Below, piece after piece: positions 10,166-32,610 of a stretch of DNA of 38,030 bases. The notes beneath the pieces are model-generated. The model did no database searches. It was given only the letters and a program-made list of their open reading frames with translations, and was not told the DNA's origin. This stretch comes from Thermodesulfovibrionales bacterium (GTDB lineage: Bacteria; Nitrospirota; Thermodesulfovibrionia; Thermodesulfovibrionales; UBA9159), in NCBI GenBank assembly GCA_035686305.1, contig DASRZP010000106.1, positions 1-38,030 of the forward strand, in the 5' to 3' direction. Made by a program: the position numbers and the translations under genes. Numbering within the stretch: the first letter of the stretch is position 1; every line of letters starts with the position of its first letter.

Positions 10166-10171
10166 GATTTC

Positions 10172-12055: not shown

Positions 12056-12183
12056 CTCTCCTCCTCTAAGAACCGTAATGGCTAAAACCTAAGACGTAAT
12101 AAGGTTCAGCGTATCCCTGTTCCAGATTTTCAAGGGTCCTCATATGCTCATGGTTCATCATTCATCATCCATGACAGAAACGC

Positions 12184-12567
12184 TTAATATGCGGTCTCGC
12201 TTCCCATGACGAGGGCGGAACCCTCAACAATACGGCCGTTCATTACATGCTCCTGGAAGATCCTTCGTATCTTCTCATCGTCCAGCAGCACATACTTCAC
12301 GGGCGCCTCGTTCATGATCTCGACGGTAGCCATAGGCTCCTTGCTGCACAACCCGGCGCAGCCCGATGTCGTCACGATCACATCCTTGACGTCGCTCTTG
12401 GCAATCTCGTCAAGGAGCGCTTCCATTACCTTTCTTGCGCCAGCAGCGATGCCGCACGTACCCATGTGCACGGTTATCTTCGCACGCGAACCTCCCTCCC
12501 GTAATGTCAGGGCGGATTTGTAGTCTTCCTTTATCTTCTTGAGATCATCGATCGTCAACCGTCCCAT
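12184..12567 (-). CDS. Thioredoxin-like [2Fe-2S] ferredoxin, HndB-like
   Basis: This 127-residue protein resembles HndB of NADP-reducing hydrogenases. Key segments are 'HMGTCGIAAGARKVME' and 'TTSGCAGLCSKEPM', which supply three visible cysteines, one fewer than the usual four of thioredoxin-fold [2Fe-2S] proteins. Cluster binding is therefore likely but not certain. The order NuoE-type, HndB-type, HndC-type, large Fe-S subunit matches hndABCD, except that the last gene here is NuoG-like instead of an [FeFe]-hydrogenase. The start has an AAGGAGG site. Confidence 0.8.
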   Translation of the reverse strand: MGRLTIDDLKKIKEDYKSALTLREGGSRAKITVHMGTCGIAAGARKVMEALLDEIAKSDVKDVIVTTSGCAGLCSKEPMATVEIMNEAPVKYVLLDDEKIRRIFQEHVMNGRIVEGSALVMGSETAY

Positions 12568-12627
12568 ACATGCCTCCTTTTACATAGATGTGAGATTTCC
12601 TGTCCTTGAGCAAGCAATCCTCAGTCA

Positions 12628-13494
12628 TTAGTCACTATAATCCTTCAGCAGATTATGTACCTTTACTGCATTGACGGATCCGTGGGTGTCTTTGTCGATC
12701 ACGACTACCGGCGCAAGCCCGCAGGCCCCCAGACACCGGACCGTTTCAAGCGAGAACTTCTTGTCAGCCGTAACGCCTCCGACACTGACCGCGAGGCCGT
12801 CACTCAGCTTCTTAACAATCTCTTCTGCGCCCTTGACATAGCAGGCGGTGCCGAGGCATACCCTGATGTTATGCTTGCCTTTGGGCTTCATGGTGAAGAA
12901 TGAGTAGAATGAGACAACGCCATGGACTTCGCTCACGGGAAGCTTCAAACCCTTCGCAATATGCCTCTGGATAGAGGGGGGAAGGTATCCGATAAGTTCC
13001 TGCGCCTCCTGGAGAACAGGGATGAGACTACCCGGCTTTCTCCGGTATCTCTTAATGATCGTATCGAGTTGCCTTGCTTTCTCCTCGGTATACTCCTCCG
13101 ATGGGGGAGCCTCTGCAATTACCCCTGACTTTCTGAATTCCATTGCCTTTCCCGTAACCTCCAGGAGCAGCCCCGGCGAAAAGGGTTTCGGCAGATAATC
13201 GAGGATCCTCAGACTGAGGGCCTCTTTTATGCTGTCCTGCGAAGGGTAGCCTGTAATTACGATGATCCCGGTATCAGGCTTGGAGTTCCTTATCCACCGG
13301 ATGAGCTCAAGGCCGTTCATGTCCGGCATCATAAGGTCTGTGATAACAAGGTCGTAGCCGTCTTTGCCGAGCTTGTTCGTCGCCTCGTTGCCGTTCGACG
13401 CGCTCTCGACGGTATAACCTTCTGGCGCTAGGATGCGTTCGCAGCTCTTGACGACAACAGGTTCGTCATCTACTACAAGTATCTTCCCTGCCAT
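12628..13494 (-). CDS. Receiver domain fused to NuoE-type [2Fe-2S] subunit
   Basis: This 288-residue fusion has a CheY-like receiver at residues 1-120 with all active-site residues present: D9/D10 in 'VVDDEP', phospho-acceptor D53 in 'VITDLMMPDMNG', T81 and K103 in 'LPKPF'. Residues 135-285 are a complete NuoE/HndA subunit: an N-terminal helical part ('LIPVLQEAQELIGYLP'), 'VHGVVSFYSFF' and the [2Fe-2S] thioredoxin fold with C213, C218, C254 and C258 ('CLGTACYVKGA', 'CLGACGLAP'). NuoE normally passes electrons or tunes flavin chemistry beside NuoF and is about 160 residues, so the extra 120 are the receiver. It is the first gene of the diaphorase operon, behind a candidate sigma-54 promoter. 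Phosphorylation could tune subunit activity or assembly (inference). Confidence 0.92.
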   Translation of the reverse strand: MAGKILVVDDEPVVVKSCERILAPEGYTVESASNGNEATNKLGKDGYDLVITDLMMPDMNGLELIRWIRNSKPDTGIIVITGYPSQDSIKEALSLRILDYLPKPFSPGLLLEVTGKAMEFRKSGVIAEAPPSEEYTEEKARQLDTIIKRYRRKPGSLIPVLQEAQELIGYLPPSIQRHIAKGLKLPVSEVHGVVSFYSFFTMKPKGKHNIRVCLGTACYVKGAEEIVKKLSDGLAVSVGGVTADKKFSLETVRCLGACGLAPVVVIDKDTHGSVNAVKVHNLLKDYSD

Positions 13495-13637: not shown

Positions 13638-13653
13638 AGCAATTATGTTGCCA
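13638..13653 (-). promoter_or_regulatory. Candidate sigma-54 promoter of the receiver-NuoE/nuoFG operon
   Basis: The minus strand reads TGGCAACATAATTGCT, matching the RpoN consensus TGGCACG-N4-TTGCW at the -24 TGGCA and -12 TTGCT blocks with exact spacing. The transcription start would be near 13627, giving a leader of about 130 nt before the ATG at 13494. A sigma-54 activator is encoded just upstream on the same strand (13998-15383), which fits. Confidence 0.7.
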
Positions 13654-13997: not shown

Positions 13998-15383
13998 TTA
14001 TCCCCTCTTGATCCCATATCTCTTCAGAAGTGCCTGGAAATTTGTCCGTTGCATCCCCACCTCCTGAGCCGCCCTTGTAATATTCCACTTGCTGCGGTCT
14101 AATGCATTGACGACAAAAGCCCTTTCGAGATCTTCGACTGACTTGACCCTCAGCTTCTTCTTCATCTGTTTCAACTCTACGCTTGTTTTGGGAATTTCGG
14201 GCTCCTTTCTGCCTGTTATGAGAATATGCTCGGGCCTCAGTGCCTTGCCTTTACAGAGGATGACGGCGCGGTGAATGATATTTTCGAGCTCCCTTACATT
14301 GCCGGGCCAGTCGTGCAGTATGAGGCGTTTCATTGCCTCTGCAGAGATTGAAGATACCTCCTTCTCCGTCTCCCTCCCGAATTTCCTGATGAAATGATCG
14401 GCGAGCGCCGGGATGTCCTCTTTCCTCTCTCTAAGGGGTGGAAGGTTTATCGGGAAGACGTTCAGCCGATAAAAGAGGTCTTCCCTGAATGTTCCTTCCC
14501 GAACCATTGCTGACAGATCTCTGTTTGTTGCAGCGAGGATCCTGACATCGACCTTCGACATGGTCCTTCCTCCCAGAGGCCTGAACTCCTTCTCCTGCAG
14601 CACCCTAAGGAGTTTCGCCTGCATCGGAATGCCGAGGTTCCCTATCTCATCGAAGAGAATAGTCCCGCGATGGGCAAGCTCGAGAAGGCCCCTGCGCGTC
14701 TCCATCGCCCCGGTGAAAGAACCCTTCATATAACCAAAGAGCTCGGCCTCCATGAGGGCGTCGGGGATCGTCCCGCAGTCGACAACAAGGAAGGGCTCAT
14801 TCCTGCGCGGGCTGTTGTGATGGAGCGCCCTCGCAATGAGCTCCTTGCCTGTTCCGCTTTCCCCGGTTATGAGAACCGTTGTCATTGCAGGTGCTACCGT
14901 TGCGATGAGGTGAAAAACCTTCTGCATGGCCGCCGAAGTCCCGGTGATATTCTCCATGCGGTACAGGGCGTGCATCTCCTGTCTCAGCCGCAGGTTTTCG
15001 ACGAGGAGGTGTTTTCTTTCGAGGCAACGTGTCACAGCGTGGAGAAGCTGTTCGGGCGCAAAAGGCTTCTCGATATAGTCGTACGCCCCGTAGCGCAAGG
15101 CCTCGACAGCGGTCTTCACGGATCCGAAACCGGTTATGACGATCACTTCCGTACCGGGCCAGTTCTCCTTGATCATCCTCAGTACCTCCATGCCGTCCAT
15201 GTGGGGCAGGCGAAGGTCTGTGAGCACGAGATCAAAGTGCTCCTTCCTGAGCCTGTTCAGCCCTTCCGTGCTGTTGGCCGAGAACTCCAGTGCATAGCCT
15301 TCAGGAGCGAGTATCTTTCCACAGCTCTTTCTGACGATCTCATCGTCATCAATAATGATAATCTTCTCTTTAGCAGAGATCAT
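13998..15383 (-). CDS. NtrC-type sigma-54-dependent response regulator
   Basis: This 461-residue transcription activator has a receiver (D56 in 'VLTDLRLPHMDG'), an AAA+ central domain (Walker A 'GESGTGKE' 174-181, sigma-54 contact loop 'GSFTGA' 221-226, Walker B 'ILFDEI' 242-247, R-finger region 'FREDLFYRLNVFPI') and a C-terminal Fis-type HTH ('WNITRAAQEVGMQRTNFQALLKR'). All parts for phosphorylation-controlled, ATP-driven opening of sigma-54 promoters are intact. Its nearest downstream target is the sigma-54 site at 13638-13653. The receiver is clearly related to those at 12628-13494 and 15532-15900 (shared 'LAPEGY' with a preceding Cys). The Shine-Dalgarno before the ATG is weak. Confidence 0.93.
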   Translation of the reverse strand: MISAKEKIIIIDDDEIVRKSCGKILAPEGYALEFSANSTEGLNRLRKEHFDLVLTDLRLPHMDGMEVLRMIKENWPGTEVIVITGFGSVKTAVEALRYGAYDYIEKPFAPEQLLHAVTRCLERKHLLVENLRLRQEMHALYRMENITGTSAAMQKVFHLIATVAPAMTTVLITGESGTGKELIARALHHNSPRRNEPFLVVDCGTIPDALMEAELFGYMKGSFTGAMETRRGLLELAHRGTILFDEIGNLGIPMQAKLLRVLQEKEFRPLGGRTMSKVDVRILAATNRDLSAMVREGTFREDLFYRLNVFPINLPPLRERKEDIPALADHFIRKFGRETEKEVSSISAEAMKRLILHDWPGNVRELENIIHRAVILCKGKALRPEHILITGRKEPEIPKTSVELKQMKKKLRVKSVEDLERAFVVNALDRSKWNITRAAQEVGMQRTNFQALLKRYGIKRG

Positions 15384-15531: not shown

Positions 15532-15900
15532 TCATTTCGAATCGAGGGCATCCTTAACCGCGGCAACGAGGGCATCAGGGGTGAACGGTTTTTCGATATA
15601 ATTGAATGCGCCTGATTTGATCGCCTTCACAGCATTCTCGACCGTACTGTATCCCGTTATCATGATCACCTTTGCGGCCGGCCGCTTCTCCCTTGTCTTC
15701 AGGAGAAACTCCATCCCGTCCATGTCGGGCATCTTGAGGTCCGTCAGAATGAGGTCGTAGGCACTCGTCTCAGCCATCTTCATACCCTCGATCCCGCTCG
15801 GTGCAACGTCAACGTCATAGCCCTCAGGCGCCAGGCACTTCTTGCAGCTTACCCGCACAATCTCCTCATCATCGATCACAAGAATCTTCGGCTTGGCCAT
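15532..15900 (-). CDS. Single-domain response regulator (CheY-like)
   Basis: This 122-residue receiver has no output domain. D10/D11, phospho-acceptor D54 ('ILTDLKMPDMDG'), T82 ('MITGYS') and K104 ('YIEKPFTP') are all present, so it should accept and pass on phosphate. It probably acts as a relay between the cassette's kinase or kinases and another component. It sits between a HATPase gene and the sigma-54 activator on the same strand. Its sequence 'SCKKCLAPEGY' is shared in form with the other two receivers in the cluster. Confidence 0.92.
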   Translation of the reverse strand: MAKPKILVIDDEEIVRVSCKKCLAPEGYDVDVAPSGIEGMKMAETSAYDLILTDLKMPDMDGMEFLLKTREKRPAAKVIMITGYSTVENAVKAIKSGAFNYIEKPFTPDALVAAVKDALDSK

Positions 15901-15992: not shown

Positions 15993-16535
15993 TTAACCCT
16001 GACGGCTTCTTATTCCCCGCTCAATATCTTCCCTTATGGCCTTCAGGACTGCCGGCCTGTTTATAGGTATCTCTCCAAGGTCCTCTCTAATCTCGGCAGT
16101 ACTGAGGCGGTACGTGTAATCATTCTTTTTATACTCAAGGACGAAATCGATCCTCTCATTTCCGGCTATGAGAACCGTCAGCGTTGCCGCGATATTCCCC
16201 AGCGGTTTCCTGTCGATATGGCTGTTCCTGAAACGTGCTGTTATGGTTGTCCCCTTCCCCTGCCCCGAAGTGATCGAAAAGCACCCGTCACACTCCTCTG
16301 CAGACTGCTTCAGGAGGGGCAACCCAAGGCCCACCCTCCTGACGGTCTTTGTGCTAAAGAAAGGGTCTGTGACCATCTTTACGGTCTCTTCGTCCATGCC
16401 CCTTCCGTTATCCCTGATCTCCAGAGTCAGCCGGTCATTTGCCGTATCCTCTTCAACGCGTATCTCCACGAGATCGGCGCCGGCAGTGACAGAGTTCTCG
16501 GCGATGTCAAGGATATGCAGGGAGAGGTCTTCCAT
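15993..16535 (-). CDS. Stand-alone histidine-kinase-type ATPase protein
   Basis: This 180-residue protein has a GHKL ATP-binding domain at residues 1-105: N box 'DIAENSVTAGA' (N14), G1 box 'DNGRGMDEE' (42-50), F-box 'DPFFSTK' and G2 box 'VGLGLPLL' (68-75). There is no upstream dimerisation/phospho-His domain. Residues 110-180 form an unassigned region. The start directly abuts the PHP stop (TAAATG), indicating coupling. It may phosphorylate a partner histidine elsewhere or act as a non-kinase switch. From memory, similar lone ATPases occur beside PHP and DRTGG genes in [FeFe]-hydrogenase operons; this was not checked here. Confidence 0.82.
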   Translation of the reverse strand: MEDLSLHILDIAENSVTAGADLVEIRVEEDTANDRLTLEIRDNGRGMDEETVKMVTDPFFSTKTVRRVGLGLPLLKQSAEECDGCFSITSGQGKGTTITARFRNSHIDRKPLGNIAATLTVLIAGNERIDFVLEYKKNDYTYRLSTAEIREDLGEIPINRPAVLKAIREDIERGIRSRQG

Positions 16536-17285
16536 TTATTCGGTCTCCCAGCAGGTGTCGCGGCCATCCCTCTTCACGAGGGCGAGCCTTATCTCTTCCA
16601 AGGTCGGCTCTTTCAGTCTGAAGGTCGTGACTCTTCTTCCGATATCGGCAACATGGTGAGCATCGGAAAAAGAGACCCAGGGCAAATTCCGCAGCCCCTT
16701 AAACTGCGCCTCTGCAAGGCCCCTTGTCATTTTTGGGGAGAGCTCAAGGGCATCGAATCGCACGTCAGCGGGGATGAAACCCAGCTGAGAAAGAACGCTA
16801 AAGCTCTCACGGTCAATATGACTGGCAATGGCCAGTCCTCCGAGGGAATGAATGGTCTCCACCAATTCGCGGAGGTTCAGCTTCGTCGCCGCTATGAGCA
16901 ATCTCCTGTTGAACGCGAGGACCTCATTGAATTCGTTTGCGATCACCTGATGCCCGTAAAGCCTCTCGTCATTTTCCTGCTCGGGAAGATTCTCATAGAT
17001 AATGTCCTGCATGCGCAACATCTGTCCCGTTTCATTGAAGAGACCAAGGATGTGAACCTCCTCTGAACTTGACACCTCCATCCCGCCGAGGATGGTCATC
17101 CCTGTCCCGTAGGCTGCCCTCTTTGATGCCTCGACATTCTCGCAGGAGTTGTGATCTGTTATGGCGATGATGTCCAGCCCCCGTGCTCTCGCTGCTCCCA
17201 CAAGGTCCCGGGGGCTCATATCCAGATCGGCGCACGGAGAAAGACAGGTATGGAGATGAAGATCGGCCAGAAACGTACTCAACAT
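16536..17285 (-). CDS. PHP-domain metal-dependent phosphoesterase
   Basis: This 249-residue protein has the PHP fold of polymerase/histidinol-phosphatase-type hydrolases. Metal-ligand motifs are present: 'DLHLHT' (H10, H12), 'ITDHNS' (D44, H45), 'GGMEVSS' (E70), 'EEVHILGLF' (H78), 'ASHIDRE' and 'FSDAHH'. It should bind two or three metals and hydrolyse a phosphoester, with the substrate unknown. It overlaps the upstream DRTGG gene by 7 bp and abuts the following HATPase gene, so it is in a tightly coupled operon. Its place among signalling genes suggests it removes or makes a small phosphorylated signal (inference). Confidence 0.88.
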   Translation of the reverse strand: MLSTFLADLHLHTCLSPCADLDMSPRDLVGAARARGLDIIAITDHNSCENVEASKRAAYGTGMTILGGMEVSSSEEVHILGLFNETGQMLRMQDIIYENLPEQENDERLYGHQVIANEFNEVLAFNRRLLIAATKLNLRELVETIHSLGGLAIASHIDRESFSVLSQLGFIPADVRFDALELSPKMTRGLAEAQFKGLRNLPWVSFSDAHHVADIGRRVTTFRLKEPTLEEIRLALVKRDGRDTCWETE

Positions 17286-17614
17286 CGAAGGAACTGATAG
17301 AGCTTGCCCCCCGCCTCAAAGGTCGAATGGGACGTGACAAAAATCGGGATCCTTTCTTCATCGGCCTTCGTCAGGGTCTCTCCTTCGGGATTTCTCTTAT
17401 TCGTCAGGATGATGGCTGCCAGGTTTCTCAGGACAGCCACGGCAACGGTGTTTGGGTGCGTCTGGAGGGTGATCCAGACTTCGCCTTCCTGTGCGTTTGC
17501 CATGACATCAGAGAGCAGGTCGCTGATATAGCACCCGGTCACCTCCCGTTCGAGATCCACATCTGCCGTCCTCGCTTCAAGGGACAATGCCTTGACTACC
17601 TCACCGAGATTCAT
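17279..17614 (-). CDS. DRTGG-domain protein (first of two)
   Basis: This is a 111-residue single-domain protein of the DRTGG type. The core 'GCYISDLLSDVMANAQEG' and 'VAVLRNLAAIILTNKRNP' matches the other DRTGG gene here and the domain seen in phosphotransacetylase and CBS-pyrophosphatase proteins, where it can take part in nucleotide binding. GGAGG lies 8 bp before the ATG. It overlaps the preceding gene by 14 bp and the PHP gene by 7 bp. A small regulatory or ligand-sensing role is likely; the exact ligand is unknown. Confidence 0.8.
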   Translation of the reverse strand: MNLGEVVKALSLEARTADVDLEREVTGCYISDLLSDVMANAQEGEVWITLQTHPNTVAVAVLRNLAAIILTNKRNPEGETLTKADEERIPIFVTSHSTFEAGGKLYQFLRC

Positions 17615-18056
17615 GGCCGTGATCCTCCCTATGAATGGTTATGATTATTTCGAGCGTCGTTCCCTCCCCGACAACAGAATCGACCTTAAAATCGTCGGAA
17701 TTCTTCTTGATGTTGGGCAGTCCTATTCCCGCTCCCCACCCCTTCTCCCTCACCCAGTCGGGAGCAGTCGAGTATCCTTCGGTCATCGCCAGCGGAATGT
17801 CAGGTATGCCCGGACCCATGTCGGTGACAACGATCTTGATCTCCTGGGAGGTAACGGAATAATACATCACGCCGGCAGTTGCATGGATGATCACGTTCAT
17901 TTCAGCCTCGAAGCTGGCGATGGCGGCCCTCCTCACGATCTTCATGTCGATGCCAAGCCCTGTGAGAACGGATTTCAACTCGCTCGACGCCACCCCGGCG
18001 TTCGTAAAATCTCCTCCGATGATATGGAAGCTCCCTTCCCTGTTGCCCTTGTTCAT
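17601..18056 (-). CDS. RsbW/SpoIIAB-like ATPase (anti-sigma-type GHKL domain)
   Basis: This 151-residue protein has only a GHKL ATPase: N box around N54 in 'AEMNVIIHA', G1 'DMGPGIPD' (79-86) and G2 'GWGAGIGLPNI' (107-117). This resembles the serine-kinase anti-sigma factors RsbW and SpoIIAB rather than histidine kinases. The ATG at 18056 was chosen over one 18 codons upstream because it overlaps the preceding stop as ATGA. No STAS-domain antagonist or PP2C phosphatase is visible nearby, so its partner is unknown. It lies between the two DRTGG genes. Confidence 0.82.
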   Translation of the reverse strand: MNKGNREGSFHIIGGDFTNAGVASSELKSVLTGLGIDMKIVRRAAIASFEAEMNVIIHATAGVMYYSVTSQEIKIVVTDMGPGIPDIPLAMTEGYSTAPDWVREKGWGAGIGLPNIKKNSDDFKVDSVVGEGTTLEIIITIHREDHGHESR

Positions 18057-18415
18057 AGCGTTGCATCCTCGGTACAGCTCTGGAGACCTTTTGCATAGAG
18101 GATGCCGCATGAGGTGAATCTCGAAAACCGTGTTGCGATCAATGGGATATCCTTCTCTCTTGCCAGCTCGATCGTCTCCTTGTCGGGTCTCTTGTCGAGA
18201 ACAAAGATGATGGCCTTCAGATCGGCGATTTCCGCCGTTCTCACCACCTGGGGATTGACGAGCCCCGTGATGAGAAGGGATCTCGGCTTTGTCGCAAAAC
18301 AGAGCAGATCGCTCATAAGGTCGGAACTGCAGACCGTACTGACGTCGGAATCCATATCCCCCGCGCTGAGAATCACCTCGCCATCGAGGAGTCTGATCAC
18401 TTCTCGCAGCGTCAT
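18053..18415 (-). CDS. DRTGG-domain protein (second of two)
   Basis: This 120-residue protein resembles the gene at 17279-17614. It has 'STVCSSDLMSDLLCFATK', 'VVRTAEIADLKAIIFVLDKR' and 'DIPLIATRFSRFTSCGILY', against 'IPIFVTSHSTFEAGGKLY' in the other copy. The two are probably ancient paralogues. It starts 7 bp after the sensor kinase stop and shares an ATGA overlap with the RsbW-like gene. The function is likely ligand or signal sensing; no catalytic site is visible. Confidence 0.78.
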   Translation of the reverse strand: MTLREVIRLLDGEVILSAGDMDSDVSTVCSSDLMSDLLCFATKPRSLLITGLVNPQVVRTAEIADLKAIIFVLDKRPDKETIELAREKDIPLIATRFSRFTSCGILYAKGLQSCTEDATL

Positions 18416-18422
18416 CCTTATA

Positions 18423-20027
18423 TTATCCTATCCCCGGTGTGGCTTCCAACGGTAACCGCACAAAAAAGCTCGCACCCTTGCCGAGCTCACTCCGTACAAA
18501 GATGTTCCCCCCATGTTTCTTGATGATCCCGTAACTGACGGAAAGGCCGAGGCCCGTCCCCTTCCCGATCGGCTTTGTCGTGAAGAAGGGCTCGAAGATC
18601 CTGCCGACGTGGTCGGGCGGTATACCGGGGCCCGTATCACTGAACTCGATCTCGATCTGTTTCCTGCCGTTGAGGCTGTCGTCGCTCAACCGCGTCACGA
18701 CGGTCACCTCGCCTCTCTCATTCATTGCGTCAGCCGCGTTTATCAAGAGATTCAGGAAGACCTGCTGCATCTGGTTCGGATCTGCAAGAATGGAGGGGAG
18801 GCTGCTCTCAAGGGTGAGGTTGAACTTTATATTATGGAACTTTGCCTGATTAGTGACGAGGGAGATGGTATTCCGGAGAAGGGCATTAAAGTCCGTCAGG
18901 GTCTTTTCCGCAGAGGTCTTTCTCGAGAACCCGAGAAGGCTCTTGATGATTTTGGAGCACCGGTTTGCCTGTTCGATGATGACTTCAAGGTCTTCGATGT
19001 CCTGTTTGTTCTCGGGGGGTATGCGTTTCTGCATGAGATGAGCAAAGGTGACGATGCCCGTTAACGGGCTGTTCAATTCGTGGGCCACGCCTGCTGCCAT
19101 CCTTCCGAGAGAGGCCAGTTTCTCTGCGTTGATGAGATGATCATGGGCCCTCACAATCTCCGCCTTCTTCTTCTGGACTTCCTCTTCGAGGGCCTTTGTC
19201 CAGTTCTCCATGCTCTCCCGGTATTTCTTGATATCCTTTGCCATGGAATTGAATGTCTGCGCAAGGAGGCCCATCTCATCGTTCGTGGGGATCTCGATCA
19301 CATGATCGAGATTCCCCTTGGATATCTTCCTCATCCCTTCGTCGAGGAGCGAGACGGGCTTCGAGACAAATTTATAGAGAATGATGCAGAGAGAGACGGA
19401 TATGATCATGATGAAGAGACCCCCGAACAGCAGGGTCCCGATGCGACTTTGAGCGATCGCGGCATCCACGGCAGCCATGCTGACATTGGTTTCGAGGACG
19501 CCGAGGATCTTCTGATCTTCCCGATGATAATGGCAGGAGGCCCCGTAGCAGGAAGGCTCATTCGCCATAGGGACAACCCTGGTCAGCGTCTTCGTGCCGC
19601 TGCGGTCAGAGACGATCCTCCAGTTTTCTGAATCGGGAATTGCACTGAGAGGCTTTTCGCTGTCCCGGTGGCAGATCTGACAGGTGGGGTAATCTTTCCC
19701 GACTGAACGGCCCACCTCGCCCTTCTTCGATGAATACGTTATTCTCCCCTTCATGTCGAATATCGTAATTCCCCGGATGCCCGAACCCGAGGCGATCGTT
19801 TCGACCGTCTTCTCTATGGAGTCCCTATCGCCGGCAAGCATGCCGCGAGAGATCCCTCGTTTCACGAGGTCTGCCGTTGCCGTTGCGCTGCTGATGAGGT
19901 TCTTCATCATAATGGTTTCCTGATAGTGGATAAAGATATACCCGAAGATGATGCTGCCCAGAGCCATAAGGCACCCTACGGCCAGGATGAGCTTTCCCGC
20001 CAGGGAATTCAGGGACTTTCTGATCAT
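18423..20027 (-). CDS. Membrane sensor histidine kinase with periplasmic haem-c-type motifs
   Basis: This 534-residue sensor kinase has TM1 at about 12-34, a periplasmic domain at 35-196, TM2 at about 197-219, HAMP at 220-272, a coiled coil, HisKA with phospho-His H316 ('AHELNSPL') and HATPase ('INAADAMNERGE', 'DTGPGI', 'GTGLGLSV'). The periplasmic part carries a CxxCH haem site (C116, C119, H120) and a second, wider C-x4-CH motif (C160, C165, H166, followed by YH). Redox or NO/O2 sensing through covalent haem is therefore plausible. It is the first gene of the signalling block, divergent from nuoA. No Shine-Dalgarno is visible, and a possible -10 lies 6 bp before the ATG (see 20034-20042). 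Candidate partners are the receivers at 15532, 13998 and 12628. Confidence 0.92.
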   Translation of the reverse strand: MIRKSLNSLAGKLILAVGCLMALGSIIFGYIFIHYQETIMMKNLISSATATADLVKRGISRGMLAGDRDSIEKTVETIASGSGIRGITIFDMKGRITYSSKKGEVGRSVGKDYPTCQICHRDSEKPLSAIPDSENWRIVSDRSGTKTLTRVVPMANEPSCYGASCHYHREDQKILGVLETNVSMAAVDAAIAQSRIGTLLFGGLFIMIISVSLCIILYKFVSKPVSLLDEGMRKISKGNLDHVIEIPTNDEMGLLAQTFNSMAKDIKKYRESMENWTKALEEEVQKKKAEIVRAHDHLINAEKLASLGRMAAGVAHELNSPLTGIVTFAHLMQKRIPPENKQDIEDLEVIIEQANRCSKIIKSLLGFSRKTSAEKTLTDFNALLRNTISLVTNQAKFHNIKFNLTLESSLPSILADPNQMQQVFLNLLINAADAMNERGEVTVVTRLSDDSLNGRKQIEIEFSDTGPGIPPDHVGRIFEPFFTTKPIGKGTGLGLSVSYGIIKKHGGNIFVRSELGKGASFFVRLPLEATPGIG

Positions 20028-20181: not shown

Positions 20182-20553
20182 ATGACGAGTTCTGTTATCC
20201 CGAGAGAGTATATACCGGCGATCATCACCATGGTCATAGCCCTGGGGTTTGGCCTTGGCGCTCTCCTTGTGGGATCCTTCGTCAGGCTCAGGAGACCCTA
20301 CAGGGAAAAGCTCATGCCCTACGAATCAGGCAATCAGCCTGTCGGAGAACCCCGGTACCGCTTCTCGGTCAAGTTCTATATCATCGCGATGCTCTTTGTC
20401 GTGTTCGATGTCGAAGCCGTCTTCCTCTATCCCTGGGCGATCGTCTTTGACCGGATCGGACTCTATGCGTTCATCGAGATGATGATATTCATCGCTGTCC
20501 TCGTTGTCGGGTATTTTTACGCCTGGAAGAAAGAAGCGTTCAGATGGGACTGA
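20182..20553 (+). CDS. nuoA: Complex I subunit NuoA
   Basis: This 123-residue membrane subunit of proton-pumping NADH:quinone oxidoreductase lies near the quinone site. It has three hydrophobic helices (about 11-33, 64-84 and 94-114), the conserved loop 'KLMPYESGNQPVG' and 'FDVEAVFLYPWA'. An AAGGA site precedes the ATG. It is the first gene of the operon. Confidence 0.96.
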   Translation: MTSSVIPREYIPAIITMVIALGFGLGALLVGSFVRLRRPYREKLMPYESGNQPVGEPRYRFSVKFYIIAMLFVVFDVEAVFLYPWAIVFDRIGLYAFIEMMIFIAVLVVGYFYAWKKEAFRWD

Positions 20554-20644
20554 CACGGTTCCCGCTTGAAGATTCATGATCCTTGCAATCGAATCGTCAT
20601 TCGCTATCAGCAATCATCGCTTTCGTGAGAGGAGGTGAGGGTAG

Positions 20645-21166
20645 ATGGTAATAGACGGCGTAACGGCTGTCGTGGAGGTCGAAGAGGGCCTGAAGGTGAT
20701 CCCCGGTGCCAGTACGATCATCGCCAGCCTTGACAAGCTCATAAACTGGGGAAGGCTTTCATCCATGTGGCCCATGACCTTTGGTCTGGCTTGATGTGCC
20801 ATTGAAATGATGACGACGGGATCGTCACACTATGATCTGGACAGATTGGGAATAATCTTCAGGGGCTCACCGAGGCAGGCCGACTTTGTTATCGTCGCAG
20901 GTACCGTGACAAAGAAGATGGCCCCTATCGTGAGAAGGGTCTATGACCAGATGCCTGAGCCGAGGTACGTGATCTCCATGGGGAGCTGTGCGTGTTCAGG
21001 AAACATCTACGATACCTATAGCACGGTGCAGGGCTGCGACACCTTCCTCCCCGTGGACGTCTATGTCCCCGGATGCCCGCCGAGGCCCGAGGCGCTCATG
21101 CAGGGGATGATAAAACTCCAGGAGAAGATCAGCGGAGAGAGGTTCAAATGGAGCAGGTGGCGGTGA
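20645..21166 (+). CDS. nuoB: Complex I subunit NuoB with in-frame TGA at the first N2 cysteine
   Basis: This 173-codon gene encodes the subunit that holds Fe-S cluster N2, which passes electrons to quinone. Reading from the ATG at 20645, with a strong AGGAGGTGA site, codons 1-49 give a normal NuoB N-terminus ending '[11 protein letters not shown]'. Codon 50 is TGA (20792-20794), and the frame continues 'CAIEMM' and stays intact to 21166. NuoB normally reads '...FGLACCAIEM', so TGA takes the place of the first of the adjacent N2 cysteines. The other ligands are present (C51, C115, C144). Restart at the ATG at 20807 would lose both tandem positions. The possibilities are selenocysteine, a base-call or assembly error, or a disabling mutation. 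Gene-finders would report only a short 3' ORF. Confidence 0.9.
20811..20827 (+). other. SECIS-like hairpin after the nuoB TGA
   Basis: TGACGA (20811-20816), loop CGGGA and TCGTCA (20822-20827) form a 6-bp stem with a 5-nt loop that has G at its second position. The stem starts 16 nt after the TGA. That fits the loose rules used for bacterial SECIS elements, but hairpins of this size arise often by chance. Confidence 0.3.
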
Positions 21167-21249
21167 GGCATCAGGGATGAATCAGTCCCCATTGAGACTC
21201 CTCAAACATCAGCAAGAATGAGAAATATCACATCAGAGACGGAGAAGGG

Positions 21250-21786
21250 ATGGAAGCACGAGAGATCGCCGAGAAGATAAGAGACCGGTTTCCTGAGGAA
21301 GTGAAAGAGATCAGGGAATTCCGCGGTCAGGTATCGGTCCTCATCCGGAGGGAATTGGTCAAGGAGATCATGCGGTATCTCCATGATACACCTGAACTGT
21401 ATTTTGACTTTCTTGAAGACCTTTGCGGTGTCGATCATCTCGGGAGAAAGGAACCGAGGTTTGAAGTCGTCTATCAGCTCTTTTCGATGGAGCACCGGCA
21501 TGCCGTCCGTCTGAAGGCCGAGGTCCCTGCAGACGACTGCACGATCGATAGCGTCGTCGAAATCTGGAAAGGCGCCAACTGGCATGAACGGGAGTGCTAC
21601 GACCTCTTCGGTGTGCGGTTCAAAGGCCATCCCGACCTCCGGAGGATACTCCTCCCTGAAGACTGGACAGGGCATCCCCTGAGAAAAGATTATCCCCTGA
21701 AGAGCGATCTTGGTGAGATGGAGTGGAAGGGGATAAAGGAGGTCATGGAGACCGCCGAGAGGAACAGGCAGTATGAGGTCAGGTAA
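21250..21786 (+). CDS. nuoC: Complex I subunit NuoC
   Basis: This 178-residue 30-kDa-type subunit of the connecting arm is not fused to NuoD. The diagnostic C-terminal signature '[18 protein letters not shown]' followed by '[20 protein letters not shown]' is complete. The start at 21250 has GGAGAAGGG upstream. An 83-bp gap separates it from nuoB, and only one base separates its stop from the nuoD start. Confidence 0.95.
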
Positions 21787-21787
21787 A

Positions 21788-22984
21788 ATGGATCAGGAGA
21801 CGAAGGAACTAAGGACAAAAGAGCTCACCATCAACATGGGTCCCCAGCATCCCGCGACCCATGGTGTCTTGCGTCTGTTTCTCGAACTCGATGGAGAGAC
21901 GGTCATCAAGTGCACGCCCTATGTCGGATACCTTCACCGGGGAACGGAGAAACTCGGCGAAAACAGGACCTATCTTCAGGCGCTGCCGCTCTCAGACAGG
22001 CTCGATTATATATCGTCCATGTCCAACAATGTCGGTTATTGCGTCGCCGTAGAGAGACTGTTCGGTATCGAGCCTCCTGAAAGGGCTAAGTATATCAGAA
22101 CGATGATGGCTGAGATGACGAGGATCAGCAGCCACATCATCGGCGTCTCGACCCATGCCCTCGATATCGGGGCTATGACCATGTTCCTCTACTCCTTTCG
22201 TGAGCGGGAATGGCTCATGGACCTCTTCGAGATGACCTGCGGAGCACGCCTGACCGTGAGCTATCCGAGGATCGGCGGCGTCAGGAACGATGTGAGCCAG
22301 GAGTTCCTTGACAGCCTCTATCAGTTCACCGAGGAGTTCCCCAGGAGGATCGAGGAATACGAGACCTTGATAGATCAGAACAGGATATGGTTGAAGCGGA
22401 CAAAAGGCATCGGCGTCATAAGCGCGGAAGACGCAATAAACTGGGGATTGACAGGTCCAACGTTACGGGGATCAGGAGTCCTCTATGACGTGAGGAAACA
22501 TGCGCCCTATGACGCCTATGATAAGGTTGCCTTTGACGTGCCTATCGGGAAGAACGGCGATGTCTACGACCGGTATCGCTGCAGGATGGAGGAACTCCGG
22601 CAGTCGAACAGGATCATCAGGCAGTGCATTGAACAGCTCCCGAGAGGCCCGATTATGGCCCCTGACGCGCCAAAGTTTACCCTTCCTCCGAAAGATACGG
22701 TACTGCAGAACATGGAGTCGATGATCCACCACTTTGTCCTGATAACAAAAGGTCCGACGACCGCTCCCGAAGGAGAGATCTACGTGGCGACAGAGGTGCC
22801 GAAGGGTGAGCTCGGGTTCTATTTTATCAGCGACGGAACGGGCAGACCGTATCGGATGAGACTACGGTCGCCGTCTTTTGTCCACGTGTCGGTACTTCCG
22901 ACGCTGTGCGAAGGCGCTCTCATAGCCGATGTCATCGCAAATATCGGAACGATCGACATCGTTCTCGGAGAGTGTGACCGGTAA
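21788..22984 (+). CDS. nuoD: Complex I subunit NuoD
   Basis: This 398-residue 49-kDa subunit forms the quinone pocket with NuoB. It contains '[21 protein letters not shown]', '[10 protein letters not shown]', '[10 protein letters not shown]' and a C-terminal '[12 protein letters not shown]'. It is related to the large subunit of NiFe hydrogenases but lacks the Ni-ligand cysteines, as expected. An upstream ATG at 21773 lies inside nuoC; the ATG at 21788, directly after the nuoC stop with GAGGT at about 10 bp, gives the normal N-terminus. Confidence 0.96.
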
Positions 22985-23003
22985 AAGCATCGTTTCCGGC
23001 TCT

Positions 23004-23471
23004 ATGGAAGACGGCGTAATCCAGGGCATCCATATTTTCAGGGACCTGGACAGCTCTGAGAGAGCGATCATCGGGGCCATACTCACGTGCAAAGAGTGTG
23101 CGCCCAATGACGTGATATACACTGAAGGGGACAAGGGCAACAGCCTGAACATTATACTCAAGGGCAAGGTGAGGATCAACAGGGCGACGGTAGAGGGTGA
23201 TCAGTTCTGCATAGCAACCCTGAAGAAAGGTGATATCTTCGGTACCATGTCTTTTCTTGACGGAAGCCCCCATGACGCGACGATTGTGTCAGACCAGCGG
23301 ACTGAGCTGACGGTATTGGAGAAGTCCGATTTTGACCGTCTGATCCAGTCCAGTCCCCTGACGGCCGCCAAGATATTACGGAGGCTTTCGATGCATCTTG
23401 CCGCTCTCGTGAGGAATATGAACAGCCAGTATATGGATGTCATGAACCTCATGTTCAGAAAGGGCAAATGA
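23004..23471 (+). CDS. Cyclic-nucleotide-binding-domain protein inside the nuo operon
   Basis: This 155-residue protein consists of a Crp/Fnr-type effector domain only. It has 'IHIFRDLDSSERAIIGAIL', 'VIYTEGDKGNSLNIILKGKV', 'LKKGDIFGTMSFLDGSPHDA' and 'VLEKSDFDRLI', the usual beta-roll with a phosphate-binding-cassette-like segment. A short C-terminal helix follows, with no HTH, so it is not a classical DNA-binding Crp. The start is uncertain: the ATG at 23004 fits the family N-terminus but lacks a clear Shine-Dalgarno, and a GTG at 22974 overlapping nuoD is the alternative. It occupies the place where nuoEFG stand in many operons. Allosteric control of complex I or its assembly is a guess. Confidence 0.82.
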   Translation: MEDGVIQGIHIFRDLDSSERAIIGAILTCKECAPNDVIYTEGDKGNSLNIILKGKVRINRATVEGDQFCIATLKKGDIFGTMSFLDGSPHDATIVSDQRTELTVLEKSDFDRLIQSSPLTAAKILRRLSMHLAALVRNMNSQYMDVMNLMFRKGK

Positions 23472-23528
23472 CAGAGGGACGTTTGAATGAGGAAAGAGGC
23501 AAAAATTTATTGAAGGCGGAGTGGAGAC

Positions 23529-24542
23529 ATGAACGTTCTTGAACTCTTTGCAGGTCCCGGATCCTTTGATGCCATGATAAAGGTTGTGCTCATGCTGCTG
23601 AAGATCGCCGTTGTGGTCGGGGCGTTGATGCTCCACGTCACCTATGCCACCTACTTTGAGCGGAAGACCATCGGCCATATGCAGGTGAGACTCGGGCCGA
23701 TGAGGACGGGGTTCCATGGCCTGCTCCAGCCGATAGCAGATTTTGTCAAGCTCTTCTTCAAGGAAGACATCATCCCCGCTGATGCCGACAAGCCGATGTT
23801 CTTCATAGCTCCCGTGATCGCGGTCTTTGCTGCAATGACGTCGATAGCGGTCATCCCCTTCTTCGAGGGATTCGTCATAGCCGATATCAATGTCGGTCTT
23901 CTCTTTGTCCTTGCCATGTCTTCCCTCGGCTCCTACGGCATCATCATGGCAGGCTGGGCAGCCAATTCCAAGTATTCCTTCCTGGGAGCCCTCAGGTCAT
24001 CTGCACAGGTGGTCAGCTACGAAATCTCCCTGGGGCTGAGCCTTGTAGGCGTCATGATGCTCGCAGGCTCCTTCAGGCTCACCGATATCGTCAAGGCCCA
24101 GGAACACTACCCCCTCGGCATGTTCCTCTTCCCCCAGATCATCGGTTTTTTTGTCTTCCTCCTGTCGGCGATAGCAGAGACGAACAGGCCGCCCTTTGAC
24201 CTCCCTGAGGCCGAGAGTGAGCTCGTGGCGGGATATTTCGTGGAATACAGCGGCATGAGGTTCGCCCTCTTCTACGTATCCGAGTATATCGGCATGATCA
24301 TCATGGGGTGCATCGGGACCGTCTGTTTCCTCGGCGGCTGGCACGGGCCCTTCGAGATACCCTACCTGCCCTTTGCCTGGTTTCTCGCAAAGGTGTATTT
24401 CATCATCTTCTTTTACTACTGGATACGGGCGACCCTGCCAAGATACCGGTATGACCATCTCATGAGTCTCGGATGGAAGGTGCTCATACCCCTTGCATTG
24501 CTGAACATCGTCCTTACAGGGATTGCGAAGGTGCTGGTATGA
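23529..24542 (+). CDS. nuoH: Complex I subunit NuoH
   Basis: This 337-residue membrane subunit contacts the quinone tunnel and has about eight hydrophobic helices. Conserved loops are present: 'TYFERKTIGHMQVRLGP', 'KEDIIPADADK', 'SAIAETNRPPFDLPEAESEL' and 'IRATLPRYRYDHLM'. The start has GGAGTGGAGAC upstream. Its TGA overlaps the nuoI ATG (ATGA). Confidence 0.97.
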   Translation: MNVLELFAGPGSFDAMIKVVLMLLKIAVVVGALMLHVTYATYFERKTIGHMQVRLGPMRTGFHGLLQPIADFVKLFFKEDIIPADADKPMFFIAPVIAVFAAMTSIAVIPFFEGFVIADINVGLLFVLAMSSLGSYGIIMAGWAANSKYSFLGALRSSAQVVSYEISLGLSLVGVMMLAGSFRLTDIVKAQEHYPLGMFLFPQIIGFFVFLLSAIAETNRPPFDLPEAESELVAGYFVEYSGMRFALFYVSEYIGMIIMGCIGTVCFLGGWHGPFEIPYLPFAWFLAKVYFIIFFYYWIRATLPRYRYDHLMSLGWKVLIPLALLNIVLTGIAKVLV

Positions 24543-25087
24543 AAATGAAAGGTGTCGTAAAGACGGTATTCATGACGGAGATCCTCAAGGGGATGGCGTT
24601 GACCTTGAAGATGATGTTCACTCACCCGGTGACGCGCCAGTATCCCAAAGAAAAGAGGCCTGCGATGCCCGGCTTCAGGGGTCTCCACGCCTTAGTAAGG
24701 GACCAGGAGACAGGAGAGGCCAGATGCGTCGGATGCGGACTCTGTGCTGCCATATGTCCCTCACAATGTATCCATGTTTATACGGCGGACAGCCCCGACC
24801 ACAAGAAAATCGTAGAACGGTACGAGATTGAGGTGCTGAGGTGTGTATACTGTGCTTTTTGCGTTGAGGCCTGTCCCTACGCCGCGGTCGTCCTCACGGA
24901 GCACTACGAATATGCCGATTATACCCGGGAAGCCTTTTTCATGACAAAGGAGAAGCTCCTTGACAACTGGGACAGGTATATGGGGCCGAAAAAGAACATG
25001 GAATATTTCAAGAAGTTCTGGCATCCCCGCACTGCCGACTTCGGATCATCCGAGGCGCAGGCGGTCTTTAGGAAAAGGGAGCGGTAG
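24539..25087 (+). CDS. nuoI: Complex I subunit NuoI
   Basis: This 182-residue ferredoxin-like subunit carries clusters N6a and N6b: C63/C66/C69/C73 ('CVGCGLCAAICP') and C102/C105/C108/C112 ('CVYCAFCVEACP'). A longer in-frame start at 24473 lies inside nuoH; the ATG at 24539 overlaps the nuoH stop by 4 bp, has GAAGGTG upstream and gives the standard length. The C-terminus is basic and ends KRER. Confidence 0.96.
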   Translation: MKMKGVVKTVFMTEILKGMALTLKMMFTHPVTRQYPKEKRPAMPGFRGLHALVRDQETGEARCVGCGLCAAICPSQCIHVYTADSPDHKKIVERYEIEVLRCVYCAFCVEACPYAAVVLTEHYEYADYTREAFFMTKEKLLDNWDRYMGPKKNMEYFKKFWHPRTADFGSSEAQAVFRKRER

Positions 25088-25129
25088 TGTGAAACGGCTG
25101 CCATTAAGGACACGCGGAAGGAGATCTCC

Positions 25130-25642
25130 ATGACTGCCGAATTACTCTTTGCCTATCTCGCAGGCGTAATTATCGTTCTCGCGCTCTTCGTCATATCGAC
25201 GAAGAACCCCGTGCACAGCGTGCTCTTCATGCTCCTCATGTTTTTCCATATAGCAGGGCTCTATCTTACGCTCAATGCCGAATTCCTCGCAGCTATCCAG
25301 GTGATGGTCTATGCCGGGGCGATCCTCGTCCTCTTCCTCTTTGTCGTCTTGCTCCTGAACCTGAAGGAAGAGGTCGTAGTTGAGCGGTTCGTCGGGCGCT
25401 GGCCTTTCGGCTTGGCCACGGCCTTTGTCTTCTTCCTCATGACGGTACTTTCGTTGCAGTCATTCGTTTTGGGGCCTCAGGGTGTCGTGGGTCCTGAGAC
25501 CATAAAGGCAGAGACAAACGCGAGGGTACTCGGGAAAATCCTTTATACGGAATTCCTTTACCCCTTCGAGGTGGTCTCTCTCATCTTGCTCGTGGCGCTC
25601 ATCGGCGCGATTGTGCTTGCCAAGAAAAAGCTAAGGAGTTGA
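25130..25642 (+). CDS. nuoJ: Complex I subunit NuoJ
   Basis: This 170-residue membrane subunit has five hydrophobic helices and the signatures '[16 protein letters not shown]' and '[20 protein letters not shown]'. GGAAGGAG lies before the ATG. It ends 2 bp before the nuoK start. Confidence 0.95.
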
Positions 25643-25644
25643 CG

Positions 25645-25947
25645 ATGGTTCCATTACAATGGTATTTGTGGCTCAGTGCGGGAATGTTTGCGATCGGCGT
25701 CGCCGGGTTCTTGATCAGGAGGAACATCATCATCATGTTCATGTCCATTGAGCTCATGCTGAATGCGGCGAACATCTCTCTCGTCTCCCTGAGCCGTTAT
25801 CTCCAGGATATGAGAGGACAGATCCTCGTCTTTTTCATCATAGCGGTGGCAGCGGCCGAGGCAGCGATAGGCCTGGCCATCATCATCGCCCTCTTCAGGA
25901 ACAGGACAACGACCTATATCGATGAAGTGAACGAGATGAAGGGGTGA
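25645..25947 (+). CDS. nuoK: Complex I subunit NuoK
   Basis: This 100-residue membrane subunit has three helices. '[15 protein letters not shown]' and '[18 protein letters not shown]' carry the two conserved buried glutamates of the proton path. The ATG at 25645 was chosen over a TTG two codons upstream because AAGGAG is spaced 8 bp from it. Confidence 0.96.
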
Positions 25948-26003
25948 TGGCGAAGGCAGGATGAGCACGGGAGAACGAAAAAATACCATGCAGGGAGTGA
26001 TCT

Positions 26004-27920
26004 ATGAATAATTATCTCTTGATACCCTTTCTTCCCCTCGCAGCATTTCTTGTCAATATCCTCCTGGGGAGAAGGTTCATAAAGAACAACGCCCACTGGG
26101 TCTCGACGGGAGCGGTTGTGGTGTCGTGGGTGATCTCGGTCATGACCCTCTTCGACGTCCTCCAGGGCAGGACGATCAACGAAGACCTTTACACGTGGAT
26201 AACGTCAGGAGGGTTCTCGGCATCGGTGGGCTTCCTCATAGACCAGCTCACGGCAGTGATGCTCATCGTCGTCACGACGGTAAGCTCCCTCGTCCACATC
26301 TATTCGATCGGATACATGCACGGAGACAAGGGCTACTACCGGTTCTTTTCCTACCTGAGCCTCTTCACCTTCTCTATGCTCATGCTCGTCATGTCGAACA
26401 ATTTCCTCCAGCTCTATTTTGGCTGGGAAGCGGTCGGGCTCTGCTCCTACTTCCTCATCGGATTCTGGTACGAGAAGAAGTCAGCCTCCGATGCGGGGAA
26501 GAAGGCCTTCATCGTCAACAGGTTCGGTGACTTCGGATTCGGCCTCGGCGTGATCATGGTATTTCTTACCCTTGGCACGCTCCACTATGGTCCGGTCTTT
26601 GCTTCGGTCAAGAGCCTGGCCGGTCAGACCGTCGACTTCCTCGGTCTCGATGTCGATCTCATCACCCTCATCGCACTCCTGCTCTTCTGCGGCGCTGTGG
26701 GAAAATCCGCGCAGCTGCCGCTCCATATCTGGCTCCCTGACGCCATGGAGGGTCCGACACCGGTCAGCGCCCTGATCCATGCCGCCACCATGGTTACGGC
26801 AGGCGTCTTCCTCGTTGCCCGCTGTAACCCGATCTTCAACCTCTCCCCCCTTGCCATGAATGTCGTTGCCGTGGTGGGAGCGGTGACGGCGCTCTTTGCA
26901 GGGACCATAGCGCTCGTGCAGAACGACATCAAGAGGATCGTCGCCTATTCAACGGTGAGTCAGCTCGGATACATGTTCCTGGCCTGCGGCGTCGGCGCTT
27001 ATGGCGCGGGGATCTTCCACCTATACACCCACGCCTTCTTCAAGGCGCTCCTCTTCCTCGGTGCGGGAAGCGTCATGCATGCCATGGCAGGGGAGCTCGA
27101 TATCCAGAAGATGGGCGGACTGAGAAAATACATGCCGGTGACCTACATAACCTTCCTTCTCGCTTCCCTGAGCATTGCCGGAATTCCCGGTTTCGCAGGC
27201 TTTTTCAGCAAGGACGAAATCCTTTGGAGGACCTATTCCTCGGGGCCTCTCGGCCACATTCTCTTCGTGATCGGAGCGCTCACCGCCCTTCTCACGGCTT
27301 TTTATTCATTCAGGATCATCTTCCTTGCATTCCACGGAGACTTCAGGGGCACCCATGAGCAGGAGCACCATCTCCATGAATCGCCCAAGATCATGATCAT
27401 CCCTCTTATCATACTCGCCGTCGGGGCAGTTGCTTCAGGGTGGGTCGGGATACCGCCCCTTCTCGGCGGCGGGGAACACTTTGCGGAGTTTCTTGCGCCT
27501 GTCGTGGGACATGCCAAGGGCGACGGTACCCATGCAGAAGAGATGGCCATCATGGGCCTTTCGGTCATCGTTGGGCTCACGGGTATCGGTGCAGCGATGG
27601 TCATGTATCTCAGGAAGACAGACCTGGCAGAGAGGCTTGGCCGGACCTTCGCGGGGCCCTACCGGATCCTCTGGAACAAATACTACGTTGATGAGTTCTA
27701 TGACTTCATCATCGTGAGGCCGACCCTCTGGGTTGCCAGGAGTGTGATCGTCGGCGTCACCGACGGGAAGATCATAGAGGGCATCGTAAACGGTGTGCCG
27801 GCTGCCATCGGAAAGTTTTCCGAAGTGCTGAGAAAGATACAGACAGGAAAGGTGCAGGAGTATGCGTCGATCATGGCGATCGGTACCTTTGTCCTCATCA
27901 TTATGGTCCTGTTCTGGTAG
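26004..27920 (+). CDS. nuoL: Complex I proton-pumping subunit NuoL
   Basis: This 638-residue antiporter-like distal pump has 'LLQLYFGWEAVGLCSYFLIG'-type and 'LPLHIWLPDAMEGPTPVSAL' signatures, the discontinuous-helix region 'YSTVSQLGYMFLACGVGAYG' and 'HAFFKALLFLGAGSVMHAM', and the long C-terminal extension with a lateral-helix region after about residue 480. Length is standard. A GGGAGTG site precedes the start. Confidence 0.96.
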   Translation: MNNYLLIPFLPLAAFLVNILLGRRFIKNNAHWVSTGAVVVSWVISVMTLFDVLQGRTINEDLYTWITSGGFSASVGFLIDQLTAVMLIVVTTVSSLVHIYSIGYMHGDKGYYRFFSYLSLFTFSMLMLVMSNNFLQLYFGWEAVGLCSYFLIGFWYEKKSASDAGKKAFIVNRFGDFGFGLGVIMVFLTLGTLHYGPVFASVKSLAGQTVDFLGLDVDLITLIALLLFCGAVGKSAQLPLHIWLPDAMEGPTPVSALIHAATMVTAGVFLVARCNPIFNLSPLAMNVVAVVGAVTALFAGTIALVQNDIKRIVAYSTVSQLGYMFLACGVGAYGAGIFHLYTHAFFKALLFLGAGSVMHAMAGELDIQKMGGLRKYMPVTYITFLLASLSIAGIPGFAGFFSKDEILWRTYSSGPLGHILFVIGALTALLTAFYSFRIIFLAFHGDFRGTHEQEHHLHESPKIMIIPLIILAVGAVASGWVGIPPLLGGGEHFAEFLAPVVGHAKGDGTHAEEMAIMGLSVIVGLTGIGAAMVMYLRKTDLAERLGRTFAGPYRILWNKYYVDEFYDFIIVRPTLWVARSVIVGVTDGKIIEGIVNGVPAAIGKFSEVLRKIQTGKVQEYASIMAIGTFVLIIMVLFW

Positions 27921-27963
27921 GCACCATCTCATGGCATCTCTTGGGCGGTAGGAAAGGAGTCTT

Positions 27964-29499: not shown

Positions 29500-29563
29500 A
29501 GGGATACTTCAGCGATCGTCGGCCAATGGTATTGACATTGAGTTTACGCGTGGAGGTTCTTGT

Positions 29564-31241: not shown

Positions 31242-32609
<1,368 letters not shown>

Positions 32610-32610
32610 T

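Follow-up and report, generated by a model that had tools for sequence, protein, structure and literature searches.

The window, a 38,030-nucleotide stretch of a Thermodesulfovibrionales genome, encodes a sensor histidine kinase (18423–20027, minus strand) that is fairly probably a periplasmic redox sensor with one or two haems. It would represent a branch of a known family in which the haem motif is widened, and would steer the operon for NuoE-, NuoF- and NuoG-like proteins. This reading is built on two Cys-His motifs, homology to haem sensors, conservation of one of the sites and of a Met, a predicted fold, a conserved operon and sigma-54-like sites; haem on either motif, a Met switch, the phosphotransfer partners and the signal are its proposed elements.

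The kinase is a 534-residue open frame with an ATG start on the minus strand, as are all features of its operon described below. The protein consists of a periplasmic sensor domain with flanking helices (residues 30–202, 19422–19940), a HAMP domain (PF00672, residues 217–266, 19230–19379), a HisKA domain (PF00512, residues 307–372, 18912–19109) and a HATPase_c domain (PF02518, residues 416–528, 18444–18782). The last three all score above their Pfam cut-offs, which places the protein among the HisKA-type sensor histidine kinases. H316 is the likely phosphorylated His, judging from the PF00512 match and the positions of the His residues. The sensor domain matches PF21563 (Mcp40H-20_sensor) at residues 55–184, with 28.7 bits for the whole protein and 33.5 bits for residues 30–202 alone (cut-off 27). 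PF11845, the sCache_heme/Tll0287-like family, gives no match to the window kinase at E 0.01 and matches one of 29 homologous sensor domains (E 0.0095).

The AlphaFold2 model of the sensor domain (mean pLDDT 88.8, pTM 0.82) is a single-Cache fold, with a less confident loop around the wider of the two motifs (block mean 74). VIA aligns the model with WalK (Z 15.2, rmsd 2.2 over 137 residues), DcuS (Z 11.1, rmsd 2.8 over 124 residues) and CitA (Z 10.9, rmsd 2.9 over 120 residues). Foldseek matches the same three proteins, along with the Geobacter haem sensors 3b42 (GSU0935, E 1.6e-5) and 3b47 (GSU0582, E 3.9e-4) at high rmsd, which reaches 14 for GSU0935. The absence of GSU0935 from the 50 best VIA entries and its high Foldseek rmsd may both come from the swapped dimer of the crystal. 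Six loci (L061–L066) encode kinases about 59–66% identical in the core that are missing the periplasmic sensor domain, as seen in the four of the six sequences that were read; the input module is thus separable. These kinases keep the membrane segments and the kinase core, within a gene neighbourhood of the same kind.

Two motifs lie within the sensor domain: C116-x2-C119-H120 (CQICH, 19668–19682) and C160-x4-C165-H166, which extends through a further His at position 168 (CYGASCHYH, 19524–19550). Each is expected by chance at about 0.0005 per 150 residues, given how often Cys and His occur in the proteins of the window; the conservation of the wide site across homologues is stronger evidence that the motif is real. 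A profile from an alignment of 29 homologous sensor domains (A1) finds 3b42 (E 9.5e-6) and 3b47 (E 9.2e-5) in the PDB, and C160 to H166 fall on the single CxxCH of both structures. Met63 (19839–19841) falls on chain residue 26 of 3b42. Chain His110 of 3b42 corresponds to His144 in the published numbering, so that chain residue 26 is Met60 of GSU0935. According to the review PMC8396549, His144 and Met60 are the axial ligands of one haem in the GSU0935 dimer. Five columns are invariant among the 29 rows, and four of these are M63, C160, C165 and H166. A PDB search with just the 27 residues surrounding the wide motif returns nothing at E 10. The wide C-x4-CH thus appears from the alignment to be a widened form of the family's core haem site, with Met63 as candidate distal ligand. 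The aligned place carries C-x4-CH where sCache_heme in the strict sense (PMC12889525) has the canonical CXXCH; the window domain is not filed under that family, yet it probably works like one.

Conservation was surveyed with the A1 profile in 295 Nitrospirota genomes, 138 of which matched; part of the matched loci was fetched, and the set leans towards the window's relatives. A profile search of the fetched loci at E 1e-6 yields 130 aligned domains, or 129 after removal of one short or contained row. Before this, a first scan of genome contigs had found no relative, and a second had found six loci, with titles of Nitrospirae, Nitrospira or Thermodesulfovibrionales. A PF21563 search of the kinase's own genome lists two other proteins and misses the window kinase even though it passes the cut-off, so such counts would run low. 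The core site is present in 128 of the 129 domains, and the sole exception, L133, is truncated where its contig ends. Its spacing is x4 in 78 domains, x2 in 46, x3 in two, and x5 and x7 in one each, which gives 82 domains with a wide site (x3–x7). The C-x7-CH and C-x5-CH forms belong to the single homologues L006 and L116, respectively. Position 63 is Met in 125 of 129 domains, with Thr in two, Ala in one and Leu in one. Of the 82 wide-site domains, 79 have the Met, and the three CX4CH homologues lacking it (T, T and A) weigh against the preferred reading.

A tree built without the motif columns separates the wide and x2 groups by one branch (support 87/89), which recurs in 89% of 200 bootstrap trees. 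The AU test of the wide group gives p 0.027 with the cut row L133 counted as an outsider; with the 46 x2 rows as the only others, a single branch already sets the wide group apart, though its support of 87/89 falls short of decisive. The extra His (CHxH) accompanies the wide site in 81 of 82 domains and is found in none of the 46 x2 domains. At the level of sequence, the core site therefore seems to have switched between CX2CH and CX4CHxH in one piece. The tree itself is unrooted; the Geobacter structures suggest that CX2CH came first.

The coupled His also feeds a quite unlikely alternative, by which CX4CHxH is a Zn, Cu or Fe site that replaces the haem, the CxxCH is the only haem site, and the kinase reads metal, or metal and haem. 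The second His would equally suit a C2H2 metal site and to that extent counts against haem; metals are commonly bound by Cys2His2 ligand sets, the motif spacing ranges from x3 to x7, and the C-x7-CH of one homologue is odd for haem c. The site nevertheless coincides with the haem place of GSU0935 and GSU0582, keeps the axial Met of that haem in 79 of 82 domains and holds its Cys-His pair adjacent at every spacing, while the 10 of 82 wide-site domains without CxxCH would carry no haem at all. A variant of this idea is distinctly improbable: the core site would have turned as a unit into a metal, or joint haem and metal, site with the old axial Met, and a separately acquired CxxCH would carry the haem. 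Such a sensor, if real, would respond jointly to metal and to redox state. The homology of the place, the retained axial Met and the Cys-His pair kept at every spacing favour a haem on the wide motif; in addition, cytochrome c3 contains CXXXXCH twice (PMC10454114). H168 was also considered as an axial ligand of a second haem; this is rejected as its main role because the 10 wide-site domains that lack CxxCH all retain H168.

Haem maturation in this genome bears on the same choice. A ResB gene adjoins a CcsA-type gene and CcmE has no match in the genome, which together indicate cytochrome c maturation System II; the adjoining pair speaks for the haem reading. The multihaem cytochromes of the genome, in 11 ORF segments, contain 74 CX2CH motifs against one CX4CH, so that wide motifs would be rare clients here; this rarity counts against haem on the wide site and favours the metal alternative. 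In-frame CX4CHxH occurs among the genome's long ORFs only in the window kinase and its C79 paralogue, apart from an occurrence in a 117-residue frame that looks fortuitous.

The plain CxxCH is more variable. It is present in 92 of 129 domains (72 of 82 wide, 19 of 46 x2, and L133), with at least seven changes on the tree, and it is degenerate in L028 (L056 in the operon reading), although the operon there is complete. The alignment thus points to an optional, dispensable second site. Trp136 (19620–19622) accompanies it, being present in 61 of the 72 wide-site domains with CxxCH and in one of the 10 without. An apparent link between CxxCH and operon context (43 loci with both, six with neither, and two and two; Fisher p 3e-5) comes down to three independent tree pairs and was set aside. 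The absence of the motif from 37 of 129 domains, its repeated changes and its decay in L028 fit the possibility that CxxCH is a decaying or structural motif and that a single haem sits on the wide site. This is unlikely, since 92 of 129 domains retain all three CxxCH residues, Trp136 goes with the motif, and relatives that have a second haem-binding motif are described in PMC3831638. Under the preferred reading, the window member would probably carry a second haem here. The sequence-only reading had described both motifs, taking CxxCH as the standard haem site and the wide site as an unusual extra that might bind a second haem or a metal. Both motifs are real, within the open 534-residue frame, and both remain plausible cofactor sites; the ranking is reversed, as the wide site aligns with the haem site of GSU0935 and GSU0582. 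The conservation on which that reading depended holds for the wide site and only in part for CxxCH.

By the proposed mechanism, haem c would be covalently bound to C160-x4-C165-H166 of the single-Cache domain and ligated by His166 on the proximal side and Met63 on the distal side. The axial Met of GSU0935 is strongly bound in the reduced haem and released on oxidation, and the haem potentials are −251 mV for GSU0935 and −156 mV for GSU0582 (PMC8396549). By analogy, Met63 would hold the reduced haem and let go on oxidation, or be displaced by NO or CO. Its release would shift the N-terminal helices against the β-sheet and pass the signal through HAMP to the kinase, which would phosphorylate linked response regulators, including an NtrC-type activator. 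Acting at a sigma-54 promoter, this activator would then switch on the operon for the RR-NuoE, 2Fe-2S, NuoF and NuoG proteins and thereby tune NADH-side respiration to the periplasmic redox state.

The same haem could instead serve as a sensor of NO, or CO, with gas binding in place of redox as the signal; this is possible and rather doubtful. A 2026 preprint argues that signalling-fused sCache_heme relatives sense NO, not redox, and reports tight NO binding by that of P. azotoformans (PMC12889525), and GSU0582 and GSU0935 bind CO and NO (PMC8396549). The conserved axial Met, on the other hand, fits the redox-linked ligand switch that the latter source describes for GSU0935, and the kinase lies beside genes for NADH-quinone oxidoreductase, none of the neighbours that family searches identified being a gene for NO handling. 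Because this redox-switched Met is conserved, redox is placed ahead of gas or quinone. Of the signals first suggested for the kinase, namely quinone or periplasmic redox state or gas ligands, redox is thus the best supported; a haem-c-type sensor kinase beside respiratory genes, as then proposed, is supported too, the haem being a predicted one.

Downstream of the kinase, the operon continues with DRTGG, RsbW-like ATPase, DRTGG, PHP and HATPase-only genes (15993–18415), assigned by Pfam and synteny; the first DRTGG copy scores 24.5 bits, slightly below the Pfam cut-off of 25.2. A single-domain response regulator, RR1 (15532–15900, PF00072), and an NtrC-type sigma-54 activator with a receiver domain (13998–15383; PF00072, PF00158, PF02954) follow. 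Both stay with the kinase in relatives and are its candidate partners. The candidate regulated module (7691–13494; Pfam, NCBIfam and synteny) comprises an RR-NuoE fusion, a 2Fe-2S protein and NuoF-like and NuoG-like proteins. In the fusion (12628–13494), a receiver domain is joined to a NuoE-like thioredoxin-fold 2Fe-2S subunit, an arrangement that recurs in many relatives. The NuoG-like protein was considered as a formate dehydrogenase and rejected, since it has no Cys/Sec-His at the presumed FdhF-equivalent place.

The order from the kinase to NuoG is seen again in relatives, entire or as blocks. Context was read for 73 wide-site domains, 50 from close homologues (at least about 42% identity) and 23 from distant ones, and the neighbour counts are lower bounds because some contigs end sooner. 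RR-NuoE lies within 9 kb of at least 26 of the 50 close homologues and of none of the 23 distant ones; nuoABCD does so for at least 29 of 50 and for two of 23. Two loci outside this count, L037 and L038, retain the kinase, the response regulator and the NtrC-type gene only.

A sigma-54 −24/−12-like site (13639–13653), the sole one-mismatch site in the window, precedes the RR-NuoE gene. The gap past the NtrC-type gene contains such a site (at most one mismatch) in six of 11 loci (the window, L034, L036, L062, L068 and L115). Random windows of matching lengths, drawn 2000 times, give 0.13 on average and never more than two. The site was first noticed in the window, without which the count is five of 10. 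The gaps of L050, L144, L146, L147 and L148 have none, that of L144 being just 15 bp long, and these five weigh against the proposed regulation. Sigma-54-like sites are not in excess over the whole window (29 found, 27.6 expected), so only position in the ntrC gap carries weight. RpoN is present in the genome.

On the other side of the kinase, a nuo operon (20182–30985, plus strand) runs from nuoA–D to nuoH–N, with no E, F or G among the genes named; an E/F/G-like set sits in the kinase operon, and further NuoF paralogues lie elsewhere in the genome. The nuoB frame (20645–21166, plus strand) contains an in-frame TGA at 20792–20794 (LA*CAIEMM), on the first Cys of the tandem Cys of the N2 iron-sulfur site. 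Of 34 distinct nuoB segments from the fetched loci, 10 have TGA at this position and 24 a Cys codon; a tRNA-Sec is encoded in the genome (70.6 bits, cut-off 47). The codon pattern suggests a selenocysteine NuoB, recurrently swapping with Cys; one fold of the TGA region gives no signal (z −0.26), and a literature listing on selenocysteine NuoB contains no title about it. Further along, a second two-component pair (31242–34644, minus strand) joins an NtrC-type regulator to a PAS kinase whose N-terminal region is NtrY-like.

Haem-Cache sensors are taken in PMC12889525 to carry CXXCH almost without exception. The wider motif stands at the same place in 82 domains of one phylum, which motif-based searches would miss or misread. 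Its natural series of x2, x3, x4, x5 and x7 spacings offers a test bed for the spacing rules of System II maturation. The operon, in turn, may connect the redox state of the periplasm to the NADH module of complex I, both in Thermodesulfovibrionales and in their relatives.

Geobacter already provides examples of this kind of sensor, and some relatives are known to have an additional haem motif (PMC3831638 and PMC8396549); the branch with a widened CX4CHxH core appears to be new. A literature search for the wide motif in such sensors returned only the general CX2-4CH signature that the review PMC8396549 gives for the Geobacter sensors, and the main text of PMC12889525 does not mention CX4CH or CXXXXCH. 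Like the window kinase, GSU0935 and GSU0582 of Geobacter sulfurreducens (3b42 and 3b47, PF21563) have a periplasmic Cache/PAS-like domain between two membrane helices before HAMP, and the place of their haem and axial Met coincides with that of the candidate site here. Those proteins have one CxxCH and a chemotaxis output, whereas the window kinase has a CX4CHxH core, a second CxxCH and a histidine kinase output. GSU0591, GSU0599, Adeh_2011 and Adeh_3383, compared by description, share a similar sensor domain with an additional haem motif, and the accessible descriptions give them no widened CHxH core. The sCache_heme/DUF3365/Tll0287 proteins (PF11845) share the Cache fold, theirs with a c-type haem on a CXXCH that is conserved at 99 and 99.4% in sCache_heme, where GSU0582 and GSU0935 are also placed (PMC12889525), in contrast to CX4CHxH here. 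Class III cytochrome c3, a tetrahaem protein with CXXXXCH twice (PMC10454114), shares this pattern with the window kinase and differs in being a small electron carrier instead of a sensor domain.
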